From Pseudomonadota bacterium (GTDB lineage Bacteria > Pseudomonadota > Alphaproteobacteria > Acetobacterales > Acetobacteraceae), in contig JAFEFW010000640.1 in the NCBI GenBank assembly GCA_018240405.1, positions 1-49,909 of the forward strand: DNA of 49,909 bases, given 5' to 3'. How positions within the stretch are numbered: position 1 is the stretch's first letter; every line of letters starts with the position of its first letter. Below the pieces are notes generated by a model. It saw nothing but the letters and a program-made list of their open reading frames with translations. It made no database searches and was not told where the DNA came from. Shown one piece after another: positions 25,347-43,894 of the stretch. A program made the translations under genes and the position numbers.

Positions 25347-25454
25347 ATGGCTTTGCGGCCCTGTCGGTGCCCCTGCGGCTGGGCATGGCGCGGACCGACA
25401 ACGTCGCACTGCCTTGCACGAAGCCCTGCCTGCCGTTGGTGGTGCGGAACATAG
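25347..25454 (+). CDS. Possible cysteine-rich micropeptide with strong ribosome site
   Basis: AGGAGGA lies 7 bases ahead of an ATG at 25347, opening a 35-codon frame rich in Cys, Trp and Arg (MALRPCRCPCGWAWRG...). It stops 17 bases before the STAS gene. The ribosome site is the best in its neighbourhood, and an AT-richer patch (25270-25320) upstream could hold a promoter. The codon use is not clearly native, so it could instead be the remnant of a larger gene; another frame reads PLRLGMARTDNVALP here. Confidence 0.3.
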   Translation: MALRPCRCPCGWAWRGPTTSHCLARSPACRWWCGT

Positions 25455-25470
25455 TCGAGAGGAAGAGACG

Positions 25471-25809
25471 ATGGACATCACGACGCAGACCGACGGCGGA
25501 ATGGCAACCCTGAAGGTTGTCGGCCGGGTCGACGCCATCGCCATGTCGAAGCTGGAGCAGGCCGCCGGGGCGGCGATTGAAGCCGGTGCGTCCCGCCTCG
25601 TCATCGACATGCGCCAGGTGGACTACATCTCCTCGGCCGGACTGCGCGCGGTGCTGATGGCGGCGAAGAAGGCACAGGCGGTCGGCGGCGGCATCGCCCT
25701 GTTCGGGCTGCAGCCCGCTGTCGAAGATGTGATGACGACGTCCGGCTTCGCCACCATCGTCCGCATCACGGCCACCGAGGACGAAGCCAGGGCTCTGCTC
25801 AGCGCCTGA
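25471..25809 (+). CDS. STAS-domain anti-sigma factor antagonist
   Basis: 112 residues, a single STAS domain like SpoIIAA/RsbV. The conserved LVIDMRQVDYISSAGLRAVL block holds the phosphorylatable serine (S55, by alignment with DSSG of SpoIIAA). In this family the dephosphorylated form captures a serine kinase/anti-sigma factor and frees a sigma factor; in some bacteria STAS proteins serve other partner-switch systems. GAGAGGAAG ahead of the ATG at 25471 supports the start. No kinase or phosphatase of the switch is adjacent. It lies 94 bases before the GPP34 gene and may be cotranscribed. Confidence 0.88.
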   Translation: MDITTQTDGGMATLKVVGRVDAIAMSKLEQAAGAAIEAGASRLVIDMRQVDYISSAGLRAVLMAAKKAQAVGGGIALFGLQPAVEDVMTTSGFATIVRITATEDEARALLSA

Positions 25810-25903
25810 CCCGGCGGAACCGCAGCAGGCCGCCGCTCTCCGCCTTTCGACGACCGCCGCGCCAGGCAGACCGGCCGGCCCAGGGCTCTACGGAGGAAGT
25901 CTT

Positions 25904-26563
25904 ATGAAGCACCTTACGCTCGCCGACGAAATCGTGGTTCTGGTGCTGGACGATGAGACCGGCCAGATCAGCAGCAGCTTCGAACCGGTGGCAAATGTCG
26001 CGGTGGCCGCCGGCATCCTGATGGAACTGGCCCTGCTGGGACGCATCGACACCGACCTGACCTCGCTGTTCATCGTCGATCCGGCGCCGACCGGCGATGC
26101 CTTGCTGGATGAGACGCTGCAGGAAATCGCTGCGGAACCAGAGCGTCAGTCCAGTGCCTGGTGGATCGATACCATCTCGCAGCGCCATCCTGACCTGGTC
26201 GACGTGGTCCTTGGCCGCCTGGTCGCGGCCGGCATCCTGCGGGAGGAAGAGCGTCAGTTCCTCTGGGTGTTTTCGGAGCGCGCCTACCCGAAGGTGAGCG
26301 GCCGGGAGGAGCGCGAGGCAACCGCCCGTCTGATGGCCGTCCTGTTCGATGACGACGTGCCCGATCCGCGGGACACGCTGCTGCTGGGGCTCGCCAATGC
26401 CACCGGCGCGCTGTCGAAGATCTTGACCGATGAGGAACTCGACAAGGTATCCGGCCGCATCGCCAGCGTCGTTGCGCTGGAGGAAATCGGCCGCTCCGTC
26501 GGGGCGATATCGAATGAGATCTGGAACGCGCTGGCGTACGCAAGAGGCGCCATCGCCTATTGA
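25904..26563 (+). CDS. GPP34 (GOLPH3/Vps74-like) family protein
   Basis: 219 residues. It carries the bacterial GPP34 pattern: LTLADEIVVLVLDDETG at the start, AAGILMELALLGRIDTD, TGDALLDETLQEI, the tryptophan pair AWWID, RLVAAGILREEERQFLWVFSER, then VPDPRDTLLLGLANATGALS and LEEIGRSV at the end. Eukaryotic GOLPH3/Vps74 bind phosphatidylinositol 4-phosphate and keep glycosyltransferases in the Golgi; bacterial members have no settled function but are expected to be peripheral membrane proteins. GGAGG lies 8-10 bases ahead of the ATG. A close paralogue is at 40861-41538. The setting between a STAS protein and an EcfG-promoter gene suggests a stress-related membrane role (inference). Confidence 0.9.
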   Translation: MKHLTLADEIVVLVLDDETGQISSSFEPVANVAVAAGILMELALLGRIDTDLTSLFIVDPAPTGDALLDETLQEIAAEPERQSSAWWIDTISQRHPDLVDVVLGRLVAAGILREEERQFLWVFSERAYPKVSGREEREATARLMAVLFDDDVPDPRDTLLLGLANATGALSKILTDEELDKVSGRIASVVALEEIGRSVGAISNEIWNALAYARGAIAY

Positions 26564-26713
26564 TCGCGGGCTGGCGGACGGAGAGGTGCCGGTTCCGGCC
26601 CGCTCCTGACTCCGCCAGATCCCGGCCCCAAGGGTGCTCCGTCCGAGCAACCGTGCGCGCGTCCTGGCGGCACTGTTCCGCCATCCGTGACGCAATTGAT
26701 CCCTTGCCAACGT

Positions 26714-26738
26714 GGAACGCGTCGTCATTTGCAGCGTT
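26714..26738 (+). promoter_or_regulatory. EcfG-type general stress response promoter
   Basis: GGAAC (26714-26718), a 16-base spacer and CGTT (26735-26738) match the alphaproteobacterial EcfG consensus (GGAAC-N16/17-CGTT) exactly. It lies 43 bases ahead of the ATG of the repeat-protein gene, leaving about 35 bases of leader. I looked for other GGAAC or GTTCC boxes with a partner at the right distance elsewhere in the window and saw no other full match. Confidence 0.75.
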
Positions 26739-26780
26739 ACCGTCTGCGGACGAAGTCTTCACATCAGTGGGGGGTTTTCA

Positions 26781-27539
26781 ATGCCTGTGATCGTGACGCG
26801 GCTGTACGATTCTGAGGATAAAGCGCGGCAGGTTGAAAGCGAGTTGGCGCCACACACGCTGTCGGGCCAGGTCACCGTGGTTACGCAGGCTGATGGCGAC
26901 TCCGCAAGGCAGGCCTTGGCTGCGAACGGCATGTCGAACGCTAGTGCCAAGGCTTATGCAGAGGCCGTATCCCAGGGCCGCTCCGCCGTCTCGGTTGCAC
27001 CGAGCTTCGGTTACGCTGGGCGGGTGACGCGCATCATGGACGCGGCCGGACCGGTCGATACGCATATTGTCGATGTGCCGGACGAGGACCTAGGGCGCTC
27101 GGGCAGTGCCAGCGCAACGGCGCGTGTGGAGGATCCCGCGGCTCCAGTATCCGCCCGCTTCGGCTGGCCGGTGCTGTTGGATGACCCTGCGCCGGCGTCG
27201 CGCAAGTTCGGGTGGCGTGTGCTGTTGGATGATCCGGCGCCGCTGTCGCGGTTGCTGGGGTGGCGAACGCTGTCGGCAAATCAGGATGCACGCGCTTCGC
27301 TCAGCCCCGACCCGGCACCGTTGTCGCGTCGCCTGGGCTGGCGGCTACTGCTGAACGACCCCACACCGGTATCGGACCGTTTTGGTTGGCGCGTCCTGAA
27401 GGATGATCCGACGCCGGCGTCGACGAAGTTTGGGTGGCGGACCCTGTCGGAGAACCAGCAGCCACGGACATCGCTGCTGCACGATCCGGCGCCCCTGTCG
27501 CGGTTGCTCGGGCTGCCGGTGTTGTTGAGGAGCCGGTAA
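26781..27539 (+). CDS. Stress-promoter-driven protein with seven DPAPxSxxxGWxxL repeats
   Basis: 252 residues. Residues 1-100 form a small alpha/beta-looking domain that begins MPVIVTRLYDSEDKARQVES, with alternating hydrophobic strands and Gly/Ala helices; it recalls general-stress-type domains but I cannot name the family. Residues 118-249 are seven copies of a 14-16-residue motif, consensus D-P-A/T-P-x-S-x-x-x-G-W-x-x-L, starting at 118, 135, 151, 177, 193, 209 and 235. A 42-residue super-unit (135-176) is repeated at 193-234, each ending in a longer TLSxNQxxRxSL spacer. No signal peptide or membrane segment. The ATG follows an EcfG promoter and precedes a strong terminator, so it is its own transcription unit under stress control. 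Confidence 0.72.
   Translation: MPVIVTRLYDSEDKARQVESELAPHTLSGQVTVVTQADGDSARQALAANGMSNASAKAYAEAVSQGRSAVSVAPSFGYAGRVTRIMDAAGPVDTHIVDVPDEDLGRSGSASATARVEDPAAPVSARFGWPVLLDDPAPASRKFGWRVLLDDPAPLSRLLGWRTLSANQDARASLSPDPAPLSRRLGWRLLLNDPTPVSDRFGWRVLKDDPTPASTKFGWRTLSENQQPRTSLLHDPAPLSRLLGLPVLLRSR
27132..27527 (+). repeat. Coding repeat array (seven degenerate units)
   Basis: DNA encoding the seven DPAPxSxxxGWxxL motifs. The units are 48-51 bases apart where adjacent and 75-78 where the longer spacer intervenes. DNA identity between units is partial, so the array is old enough to have diverged while the protein pattern was kept. Confidence 0.7.
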
Positions 27540-27545
27540 AAGCTT

Positions 27546-27574
27546 GCTGCGCCCGCAGTGGTTGCGGGCGCAGC
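27546..27574 (+). terminator. Strong hairpin terminator of the repeat-protein gene
   Basis: A perfect 12-bp stem (GCTGCGCCCGCA / TGCGGGCGCAGC) with a 5-base loop begins six bases after the stop codon. No long T-run follows. Confidence 0.65.
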
Positions 27575-40860: not shown

Positions 40861-41538
40861 ATGAGCAGCCAATGCTCCGTCGGGACCCTGACACTTGCCG
40901 ATGAAATCGTCGTCCTGCTGCTGGATGACGAGGTCGGCGACGTTGCGCTTGTTCATCGCCCCATTGCGACAATCGCCGCGATTGGAGGCGTCCTGATGGA
41001 ACTTGCCCTGCGCCTGCGGATCGACACCGATCCCCACCGGCTGTTTGTCATTGACCCGGCCGATACCGGCGACGCGCTGCTGGATGGCGTGCTGCGGGAA
41101 ATCGCCGCCGCCGAGGGCACGCAGCCCACGGCGTGGTGGGTCGATGCGCTCGCCGGGCGCCACAGCCATATTCTGGATCAGGTCATGCATCGCCTTGTGG
41201 AGGCGGGCATCCTCCGTCAGGAGGAGCGGCGTTTCCTGTGGGTGTTCTCGCGGCGCGCCTACCCGCCGGTCTCGGGCCGCGAGCGGCTCGAGGCGAAGGC
41301 GCGGCTGATGACCATCCTGTTCAACGATGACGTCCCCGATCCGCGCGACACCCTGCTGCTCGGCCTTGCCAACGCATCCGGCGTGCTGTCGCGGATGCTC
41401 AGCGCGGCGGAGTTCGAGCGGGCTGCGGCGCGCATCGCCCAGATCGCGAACCTGGAGGAGATCGGTCGTTCGGTGGCGACGGTTTGCAGGCAGGTGCTGG
41501 ACGCCCTGGGAGTGACGGCGCGGAATTATCCAGTGTAG
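40861..41538 (+). CDS. GPP34 (GOLPH3/Vps74-like) family protein, second copy
   Basis: 225 residues, clearly paralogous to the protein at 25904-26563: TLTLADEIVVLLLDDEVG, GVLMELALRLRIDTD, TGDALLDGVLREI, AWWVD, RLVEAGILRQEERRFLWVFS, VPDPRDTLLLGLANASGVLS and LEEIGRSV line up along the whole length. It has a short extra N-terminal tail and a slightly longer C-terminal end. Divergent from dnaE with 107 bases between starts. Role unknown; a peripheral membrane location is inferred from the family. Confidence 0.9.
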   Translation: MSSQCSVGTLTLADEIVVLLLDDEVGDVALVHRPIATIAAIGGVLMELALRLRIDTDPHRLFVIDPADTGDALLDGVLREIAAAEGTQPTAWWVDALAGRHSHILDQVMHRLVEAGILRQEERRFLWVFSRRAYPPVSGRERLEAKARLMTILFNDDVPDPRDTLLLGLANASGVLSRMLSAAEFERAAARIAQIANLEEIGRSVATVCRQVLDALGVTARNYPV

Positions 41539-41701: not shown

Positions 41702-43894
41702 TCAGCCTTGCCCGGCGATGCCATCCAGCAACGGCCGCAGCACCGCATCATCCGGCCGCCACTTGCCGACGGAGCTGCTGTAGAGCGGCTGGCGCACTTG
41801 CGCGACGCTGGCGGTGCGAACGGCTCGTTGCGTCCGGTGGAACGCCAGGCAGGCATCATCCCAGGGCAGGCCACAGAACTCCAGCAGCCGCCGGATCATG
41901 CCTTCCAGGTCGGCGACGACCTCCTCATACCGCACGTCCAGCATGACCCCGGGCGGCAGCGCGGCGCGCCAATGGGCCATCGTGTCAAGGTAGTCGTGGT
42001 AGTAACGACCCAACTCCCCCAGGTCGTAGGTGAAGTTCAGTTCATCGCCGAACAGTTTGGAGAAACAGGACAGGCAGGTGTCTACCGGGTCGCGGCAGGT
42101 GTGGATGATCTTCGCCCGCGGCAGCGCCAGATGGATCAGGCCGGCGAGCCGGAAGTTTCCCGGCATTTTGTCGGTGACACGGGTTCTCCCCGGGGTCAGC
42201 GGCGGCAGCAGATCGAGATACGACCGCCCGAGCCGCTGCATCGTCGTCGGGTCAAGCGACAGCACGGCGTCCGGTTCAGCATCGCCGGTGTTCGCCGGAA
42301 CCGCCTGCAGGATTTGCTGCAGACTCTGCCCGAAGTCCTTCCGTTCGCCACCGGCAATGACCTGGTGGTGACTGGCAAGGATCTGCTCGATCAGCGTGGA
42401 GCCCGAACGGGGCATGCCAAGAATGAAAATCGGCACCTCGGACGGTTCACCCCAGCCGGCAAGGTGGCTGATCATTGCCGGCGAAAAGATTGCACGGACC
42501 TGCGCGCTGGAGGCGAAAGCGGCACGCTCATCGTAGGTGACGGTGCGTCGCTTGCGGGCATTGCCTTCCAGCAGGCAATCAAACGCGTTCGCTTTCTCGC
42601 CAATGTCGTCGTAGGCCTTGCCGAGGGCGAACAGCCGGGTCATGGCTTCCGTCTCTGTCATGCCTTCGGGATCGAGCGCTTCCAGCGTCGCCAGGCGCGG
42701 GTCGTTCCGCCGGAGTTTCGTGACATTGAACAGGCTCAGGTACAGCCCGGGCCGGTGCGGCGCCAGCTCCAGCGCTGTCTGGAAGGCGGCCTTCGCACCA
42801 TTGATGTCGCCGAGCTGTTCGCGCGTGCGCCCGACGCCCTGCCAGGCACCGGGCATACTTGGCTCCAGCTCCGTCGCACGCTCCAGGTGCTTTAAGGCTT
42901 CGTCTTCCCGGTTCAGTGCCAGGAGCGCGTGGCCAAGGCCGACGAGAGCGCGTGGATGGTCCGGATCCACCGCCAGTGCCCGGTCGAACAGCGTCGCGGC
43001 TTCCCGCTCACGCCGTTGCACCGCCAGCACGGCCGCGAGTCCGAGAAGAGCGTCAATCCGTTCCGGCTCCACATCGGCAATGCGCCGGAAATCGTGTTCG
43101 GCCTCTTCGATCCGGTCCAGCAGCACCAGGACATCGGCGCGGCGGCATTGGACCTCTATCGAGTCGGGCGCCAAGGCCAGTGCCTTGTCGAGATGTTCCA
43201 ACGCGGCCTCGGCGCGCAGCATCAGCAGCAGGCTGCTGCCGAGGCCAAGATGCGCTTCCATGTAATCGGGGTCGACGTCCAGCGCGGCCTGGAAGGCCAC
43301 GTAGGCGTCGTCGTGCCGGCCGAGCCGCTGCAGCGTCGCGCCCAGGCCGTATTGCGCCTCGGCAAAGTCGGGGTCGAAGCCGATCGCGGCGCGGTAGAAT
43401 GTGGCGGCCTCGTCGAAACGCTGCAGCGCTTGCAGTACCGTCGCAGCTGCGTAATGGCCCTCTGGTTGTTCCGGTTGCAGTGTGATCACGCGCTGAAAGC
43501 AAGAGAGCGCATCTTCAAGCCGCCCGGCCTCGCGATAGGCTTCGGCCAGACCATATTGGGCATCCGCCATCGCCGGATCGGCGGCGACGGCGGCCTCGTG
43601 CGCGATAATGGCGTCTGCCAGCCGACCCTGGGCTTGCAGGGCCGCACCGAGGTTGGCATGAGCGGCGGCGCAGGTGGGATCGCGCTCCAGCGCGTTGCGC
43701 AGGAGCCCGATTGCGTCCTCCAGGCGGTTTTGCTGCAGGCAGAGCACCCCGAAATGCAGCAGCGTATCCAGATGTACTGGGTCAGCCCTTAACAGAGCCT
43801 CATACTCATGTGCGGCTTCGGACAGGCGTCCTTGCTGGTGCAGGGCTTTGGCGGCGGCGAAGGGCGTCCAATCGGCAGTCGGTTGCGTGCGCAT
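41702..43894 (-). CDS. TPR-repeat protein with C-terminal sulfotransferase domain
   Basis: 730 residues. Residues about 15-400 are at least ten TPR units (for example CAAAHANLGAALQAQGRLADAI and ALVGLGHALLALNREDEALK). The C-terminal 245 residues are a Sulfotransfer_3 domain: the PAPS phosphosulfate loop GMPRSGST at 493-500, DKMPGNFRLAGLIHLALP, and KIIHTCRDPVDTCLSCFSK with the 3'-phosphate-binding region, ending in GKWRPDD. Such fusions are common in proteobacteria and are thought to sulfate glycans or small molecules; the acceptor is unknown. No signal peptide. It stands alone. Confidence 0.9.
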   Translation of the reverse strand: MRTQPTADWTPFAAAKALHQQGRLSEAAHEYEALLRADPVHLDTLLHFGVLCLQQNRLEDAIGLLRNALERDPTCAAAHANLGAALQAQGRLADAIIAHEAAVAADPAMADAQYGLAEAYREAGRLEDALSCFQRVITLQPEQPEGHYAAATVLQALQRFDEAATFYRAAIGFDPDFAEAQYGLGATLQRLGRHDDAYVAFQAALDVDPDYMEAHLGLGSSLLLMLRAEAALEHLDKALALAPDSIEVQCRRADVLVLLDRIEEAEHDFRRIADVEPERIDALLGLAAVLAVQRREREAATLFDRALAVDPDHPRALVGLGHALLALNREDEALKHLERATELEPSMPGAWQGVGRTREQLGDINGAKAAFQTALELAPHRPGLYLSLFNVTKLRRNDPRLATLEALDPEGMTETEAMTRLFALGKAYDDIGEKANAFDCLLEGNARKRRTVTYDERAAFASSAQVRAIFSPAMISHLAGWGEPSEVPIFILGMPRSGSTLIEQILASHHQVIAGGERKDFGQSLQQILQAVPANTGDAEPDAVLSLDPTTMQRLGRSYLDLLPPLTPGRTRVTDKMPGNFRLAGLIHLALPRAKIIHTCRDPVDTCLSCFSKLFGDELNFTYDLGELGRYYHDYLDTMAHWRAALPPGVMLDVRYEEVVADLEGMIRRLLEFCGLPWDDACLAFHRTQRAVRTASVAQVRQPLYSSSVGKWRPDDAVLRPLLDGIAGQG

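Follow-up and report, generated by a model that had tools for sequence, protein, structure and literature searches.

Among the systems closest to the locus described here, RbaV–RbaW–RbaY of Rhodobacter capsulatus combines a STAS protein, a HATPase kinase and a REC-PP2C phosphatase in an alphaproteobacterium; according to the available text, RbaV is the determinant of this system, for which no sigma partner has been identified (PMC3999984). A review of STAS-only proteins describes, in the part available, systems with unknown targets (PMC8256260), and several Gram-negative partner switches, RbaVWY included, appear in the accessible text of these two sources without a known target. SCO4440 of Streptomyces coelicolor is, by the accessible text, a bacterial GPP34 protein (PMC12402492). 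We analysed a 49,909-nucleotide stretch of DNA from a member of the Acetobacteraceae (GenBank assembly GCA_018240405.1, contig JAFEFW010000640.1; hereafter the window), which is a whole contig (C600) of a 7.37 Mb genome. It carries on its plus strand a gene for an RsbV/RbaV-like, STAS-domain-only protein (25471..25809, 112 residues), followed by a gene for a GPP34/GOLPH3-fold protein (25904..26563, 219 residues). The two belong to a real, repeatedly assembled STAS–GPP34 module, which in its fullest forms also includes kinase and phosphatase genes.

The window STAS protein is a single domain (PF01740, 62.9 bits, 2.7e-17) and scored 69.4 bits against the anti-sigma-antagonist model TIGR00377, above the cut-off of 53.45. 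As expected of a partner-switch STAS protein, it has candidate phospho-acceptor serines, S54/S55, within YISSAGL, and the motif Y[IVL]SSAG[LI] was present in all 32 STAS genes called at GPP34 loci, duplicates counted. These residues may be compared with the two serines of the RbaV phospho-site, S56 and S57, given in the available text of PMC3999984. The neighbouring protein matched PF05719 with 148.3 bits (curated cut-off 29.1), placing it in the GPP34 family, and is predicted to have the GOLPH3 fold. MlaB, which acts at the membrane, likewise belongs to the STAS proteins, so that the first gene might encode an MlaB-like lipid-transport subunit with GPP34 as its lipid-handling partner. The NCBIfam model mlaB_1 gave 14.7 bits against a cut-off of 90, in contrast to the passed TIGR00377, and an MlaB-type STAS was rejected; the kinase and SpoIIE neighbours described below fit a phospho-switch, and the lipid-transport explanation is scarcely credible.

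GPP34 matches over the cut-off were found in taxon-based surveys of relatives (11/99), of genomes of the class (29/385) and of the phylum (9/398), together 44 different GPP34-bearing genomes. A STAS gene lay directly beside GPP34, on the same strand, in at least 15 of the 44 (G000 of the window, G011, G017, G032, G033, G096, G394, G409, G487, G490, G514, G515, G566, G574 and G591), a lower bound that leaves four class-survey GPP34 places (G293, G487, G505 and G582) outside the count. The 15 genomes represent seven family codes, all of the window's class; the six genomes new in the phylum survey included none with STAS beside GPP34. To these were added 80 named loci, the best 80 of 241 relatives, obtained with one peptide pattern and an alignment of 15 GPP34 proteins; 14 of those 15 are STAS-linked, so linkage rates in the named loci are biased, and the 15/44 figure is independent of them. 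With the named loci included, STAS adjoined 26 of 112 distinct single-domain GPP34 proteins (195–250 residues), Falsiroseomonas species among them. STAS accounted for 26 of the 212 genes adjacent to GPP34 as compared with 1 of 1179 farther away (p = 3e-21, related loci included). The gene caller, our own script, misses genes (the repeat gene of the window, described below, and genes of lower-G+C loci such as L101 and L163), and recounts were therefore made in six frames without gene calling. The scan took in the window and 138 loci; L047, whose match was under the cut-off, yielded no GPP34 hit and was dropped, and the GPP34 proteins of L043 and L128 are identical. A STAS domain lay no more than 110 bp from 27 of 139 distinct GPP34 domains (2 of them partial), and the only STAS domains not touching GPP34 were the second of L086 and that of L163, 4.6 kb away.

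The STAS gene was upstream of GPP34 in 15 distinct cases and downstream in 12. The minimum number of linkage changes, gains and losses together, was nine on the GPP34 tree and seven on the STAS tree, both of them quick trees with many open forks, the latter with 15 background rows only. In G017 (84% complete), the sole STAS match found in the genome was the one beside GPP34. The association of STAS with GPP34 proposed in a preliminary description of the window is strongly supported by these data and extends to kinase and phosphatase genes; of the two conserved neighbours envisaged there for GPP34, the STAS gene was recovered in relatives and the repeat-protein gene, at full length, in the window only. 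A mobile-element lead was dropped: plasmid records held eight distant GPP34 matches (six Streptomyces, one Nonomuraea and one Chroococcidiopsis), and phage records held no GPP34 match.

Further switch genes accompany the pair in several relatives. In L045 (G017, of the window genus) a SpoIIE-type phosphatase, STAS, GPP34 and a HATPase-type (RsbW-like) kinase are encoded in that order, the phosphatase matching SpoIIE with 168.9 bits and HAMP with 21.7 bits, under the Pfam cut-off of 25. In L101 (G574, of another family) the order is STAS, GPP34, REC-SpoIIE, HATPase_c_2 and a periplasmic binding protein; the long frame that follows looks, by eye, like the L099 sensor kinase. L099 itself encodes GPP34, REC-SpoIIE, a binding protein and a kinase of the HisKA type, whose TorS-sensor match falls slightly short of the cut-off. 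STAS–GPP34–kinase sets stand at contig ends in G032 and G033, and L165 (a Rhodovarius metagenome-assembled genome) has a methyl-accepting chemotaxis protein (MCP), REC-SpoIIE and GPP34. A SpoIIE-type match was present in only four distinct loci of the scanned DNA (L045, L101, L099 and L165). A kinase gene was present in the locus of 9 of the 27 STAS-adjacent GPP34 domains as compared with 1 of the 112 others (p = 1e-6). The kinase gene adjoined the cassette or formed part of it in L042, L044, L045, L086 and L101 and was no more than 3 kb away in L046, L087, L112 and L113; HATPase_c_2 was confirmed by Pfam in L042, L046, L086, L087 and L101. By eye, the motifs that we take to be the kinase boxes and the metal sites of the phosphatase appear intact.

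Two other settings of the switch genes were observed. In L046, L112 and L113 an RsbW-like kinase is encoded close to GPP34–STAS; after it come an MCP (Pfam in L046, by eye in the others) and genes that, again by eye, are presumably CheW/CheR-like. GPP34 adjoins an ammonium transporter in L086 (7290-12913) and L163 (7965-14062), both with STAS and HATPase genes, together with glutamine synthetase III in the former and GlnE in the latter; a nitrogen link of the switch is possible.

That a GOLPH3-like gene is repeatedly encoded beside parts of a phosphorylation switch suggests that GPP34 is what the switch controls. We give an even chance to the reading that STAS and GPP34 form the centre of a partner switch of the Rsb/Rba type, with GPP34 itself, rather than a sigma factor, as its likeliest output. 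A SpoIIE-type (PP2C) phosphatase under sensor control would dephosphorylate STAS at S54/S55, its input coming either through its own N-terminal sensor part or, for REC-SpoIIE, from a histidine kinase together with a periplasmic binding protein. The RsbW-like HATPase kinase would rephosphorylate STAS, one phospho-state of which would bind GPP34 and set its activity; GPP34 would then act probably at the inner membrane face or in envelope building. A bolder form of this proposal, in which GPP34 supplies the non-sigma output so far lacking for a class of switches in Alphaproteobacteria, with an envelope action toggled by the STAS phospho-state and an input from periplasmic binding protein and sensor kinase, is put forward tentatively, as possible rather than probable.

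Several observations weigh against GPP34 as the output of such a switch. No STAS gene was found beside the GPP34 places examined in 29 of the 44 genomes, nor was an adjoining STAS seen at the GPP34 loci examined from other phyla and from two genomes of another class, which indicates that GPP34 also works without the switch. A second GPP34 gene of the window (40861..41538, plus strand) has no adjoining STAS gene, the gap between STAS and the first is 94 bp, and no STAS–GPP34 fusion was seen. Neither an RsbW-like kinase nor a SpoIIE-type (PP2C) phosphatase gene lies near the pair in the window, and among relatives kinase and phosphatase occur together in two cassettes only, L045 and L101. GPP34 could also be an input or a scaffold and not the output. 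Finally, the lack of a sigma gene near the cassettes, which in itself favours the proposal, reaches only as far as the cassette contigs: a Sigma70_r2 search of nine genomes found none on the cassette contig in seven and the nearest more than 100 kb off in G487 and G409, and the contigs of G017, G032, G033 and G574 are 6–13 kb long, so that a farther sigma gene would be missed and the switch may have an unlinked one.

The 29 genomes without the pair and the 94-bp gap favour a shared operon, maintained by common regulation or captured by chance, in which the two products have no direct working link. The same may be said of several GPP34 loci that lie in another conserved neighbourhood, which we take to be HisI–CobW–LpxB, the names coming from the sequences and not from Pfam scans. 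Against this, the pairing recurs in seven family codes and in both gene orders, matching kinase and phosphatase genes accompany it, and predicted starts give 4-base STAS/GPP34 overlaps in L043, L088 and L101. The flanks differ even within one genus: 13 flank contexts were distinguished among the 26 pair loci, and 12 of these contexts can be compared (L042 is without a flank gene), and in the window genus the pair stands among different genes in all four loci with flanks (the window, L043, L044 and L045). We consider an operon without a working link improbable.

The window copy of the module is, judging by its gene content, a reduced one, with candidates for the kinase and the phosphatase elsewhere in the genome. 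Unlinked to the pair, the window genome has a HATPase–STAS–STAS group on C591 and a SpoIIE–STAS pair on C585. The C591 kinase is 31% identical to the L045 kinase over 118 residues, and the C585 phosphatase is 42% identical to that of L045 over 290 residues. These two candidates may act on the STAS–GPP34 pair from their distant loci.

The preliminary description had noted a sigma antagonist, STAS, together with an EcfG promoter. The known antagonist of EcfG is NepR, with PhyR, and not a STAS protein. No sigma gene was seen near the cassette in 9/9 genomes (several on short contigs), and as far as seen the STAS–GPP34 system is not a sigma switch. An EcfG-controlled STAS–GPP34 operon was discarded. 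For the motif GGAAC-N16-CGTT, derived from what we take to be the EcfG consensus, no copy was found 5' of STAS or GPP34 in the window, nor was one upstream of STAS in L042–L045, of which L042 and L044 have little or no upstream DNA. These four same-genus loci contain one motif in total, in L044, 3.3 kb beyond the kinase gene and on the opposite strand.

Whether the window GPP34 protein could share the adaptor action of GOLPH3 was assessed from the binding pocket for phosphatidylinositol 4-phosphate (PI4P), in which we take W81, R90, R171 and R174 (human numbering) to have roles. Read by eye from a profile alignment, the window copy has A in place of R90, P in place of R171 and V in place of R174, and no Trp around W81. 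The pocket of the fly protein includes a K167/R170 pair, according to the available part of PMC4006750. Some relatives keep R at 174 and a Trp near 81 (e.g. L093), and the apparent loss of the pocket concerns the window copy, not the whole group. GOLPH3-type PI4P binding was rejected for the window copy on the grounds that these residues appear not to be kept. It is doubtful whether the protein acts as an adaptor in the manner of GOLPH3, given the pocket and the acidic isoelectric point (pI) of 4.31. Stand-alone GPP34 proteins are acidic in general, with a median pI of 4.6 for 26 STAS-linked copies and 4.8 for 86 not linked.

Instead of being controlled by the switch, GPP34 might serve to hold the STAS switch at the membrane, as an anchor or scaffold, and the switch would then act on a different, unlinked protein. 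This explanation draws on the fusion of GPP34 to membrane parts, namely to a major facilitator superfamily (MFS) transporter in L107 (7367-9295) and to C-terminal regions of about 190 residues with four to five hydrophobic stretches in L103 (7579-8754), L106 (1180-2361) and L111 (8005-9180); in L103, the one scanned, no further Pfam match was found in this region. It is also consistent with the available part of PMC8256260, by which STAS proteins can act on unknown targets. The acidity of stand-alone GPP34 and the pocket of the window copy leave membrane binding itself unproven, and we regard an anchor as unlikely. A further fusion, of GPP34 with a cytochrome P450, was seen in L116 (7878-9905), with frames of like length in L117–L119.

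The preliminary description had placed STAS, GPP34 and a third protein in one membrane-stress module under EcfG. Domain searches and the repeat pattern confirm that the three genes stand in a row on the plus strand; the order therefore holds, and the conserved grouping comprises STAS and GPP34 only, not the third gene. The latter (26781..27539, plus strand) encodes a protein of 252 residues with an N-terminal domain and seven DPAPxSxxxGWxxL-type repeats, six of them matched by pattern and the seventh, one residue longer, read by eye; it matched no Pfam family above its cut-off. The repeat family was present in 8 of 200 genomes of the family searched, including the window's own, and in the other seven (7/7) the repeat gene or array lies immediately 3' of a PucC-cluster gene. 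An antenna-type gene precedes the pucC-linked set in 6/7; in the remaining genome, G108, the contig ends within pucC. Among the loci scanned with Pfam, L049 matched both PUCC (9e-142) and LHC, and L048 matched LHC. Nine of 14 control genomes also have a match to the PUCC model; the PUCC hits relied on scored 466–493 bits. When 139 GPP34 sources (the window and 138 loci) were scanned in six frames, no full-length repeat protein was seen outside the window. The one other hit, in L039, covers just the N-terminal part and lies in a DUF2382 protein encoded two genes from GPP34 on the opposite strand. The repeat protein is judged to belong to a separate, light-harvesting-linked family outside the STAS–GPP34 module, because its relatives follow pucC in all seven other genomes and the full-length form is beside no other GPP34 gene.

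The link to pucC is not absolute: the three repeat-family copies of the window genome (over E 0.001) are on C600, C597 and C166, none beside pucC, and its two PUCC-family genes are on C606. This, the row of genes and an exact EcfG-like motif are what speak for the three-gene module. The motif (26714..26738, plus strand) precedes the repeat gene only, ending 42 bp 5' of its ATG; with an alternative GTG start at 26712 it would fall within the frame. Counting N16 or N17 spacers on both strands, we observed one copy in the window as compared with 0.78 expected from 60 simulated windows of the same first-order composition. The promoter reported before the repeat gene is thus exact as a motif and without significance as a match. 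None of the repeat-family genes in nine other scanned loci (L048–L056) had it just upstream, and the motif is judged to lie outside the STAS–GPP34 module, at chance level. With the pucC neighbours, the 139 GPP34 sources and the chance-level motif against it, the stress module is largely refuted, and we consider it extremely improbable. Repeats of the PxPxSxxxGWxxL type were seen downstream of pucC in L048, L049, L050, L051, L052, L053 and L054, with three tandem copies of the gene in L048, whose homologue has a weak YflT match (0.0015, below cut-off). The repeat proteins may constitute an uncharacterised family of light-harvesting accessory proteins.

In the window, a PfkB sugar kinase gene lies 5' of STAS, and BolA and an Lrp/AsnC regulator are encoded on the 3' side of the trio. 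The second GPP34 gene, absent from the preliminary description, encodes a paralogue of 225 residues (PF05719, 1.1e-38), which on the GPP34 tree falls in a starred group of six rows with STAS-linked copies of the window genus. Convergent with it is a gene for a tetratricopeptide-repeat (TPR)-sulfotransferase protein (41702-43894, minus strand). Two GPP34 paralogues about 1.2 kb apart and without STAS were also seen in L147, L149, L152, L158, L160, L164 and L172, mostly Falsiroseomonas, in genomes that also carry a GPP34–STAS pair.

In the open-licence PubMed Central (PMC) literature we found no report of STAS–GPP34 linkage and no co-mention of GPP34 with anti-sigma. The co-mention of GPP34 and STAS in the available text of PMC9505663 consists of an aegerolysin name and an author name, and PMC4581242 is the other paper matched by both terms; PMC13238533 is a second Streptomyces paper with GPP34/PF05719/GOLPH3-like terms, besides PMC12402492. 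Neither 'STAS' nor 'anti-sigma' occurs in the accessible text of PMC12402492, nor GPP34/GOLPH in that of the STAS-only review PMC8256260. With a cassette that recurs and includes a candidate target among its switch genes, the question of the target becomes directly testable. Bacterial GOLPH3-like proteins, of which one studied example was found (SCO4440), acquire both partners and a context in signalling.

The fuller cassettes resemble RsbUVW and SpoIIA–SpoIIE of Bacillus in that PP2C phosphatase, STAS and HATPase kinase form one cassette in relatives of the window (PMC8256260, available text, with general background), and differ in holding GPP34, with no sigma factor seen near. Unlike RbaVWY, they have a GPP34 gene among or next to those of the switch, 'GOLPH' being absent from the available text of PMC3999984. 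SCO4440 shares the GPP34 family and differs in being paired with a D-Ala-D-Ala carboxypeptidase gene (PMC12402492, available text). As compared with eukaryotic GOLPH3/Vps74, the window protein is bacterial, appears to be without the PI4P-pocket residues and is linked to a putative phospho-switch, and the linkage bears on the role of the GOLPH3 fold before PI4P and the Golgi.

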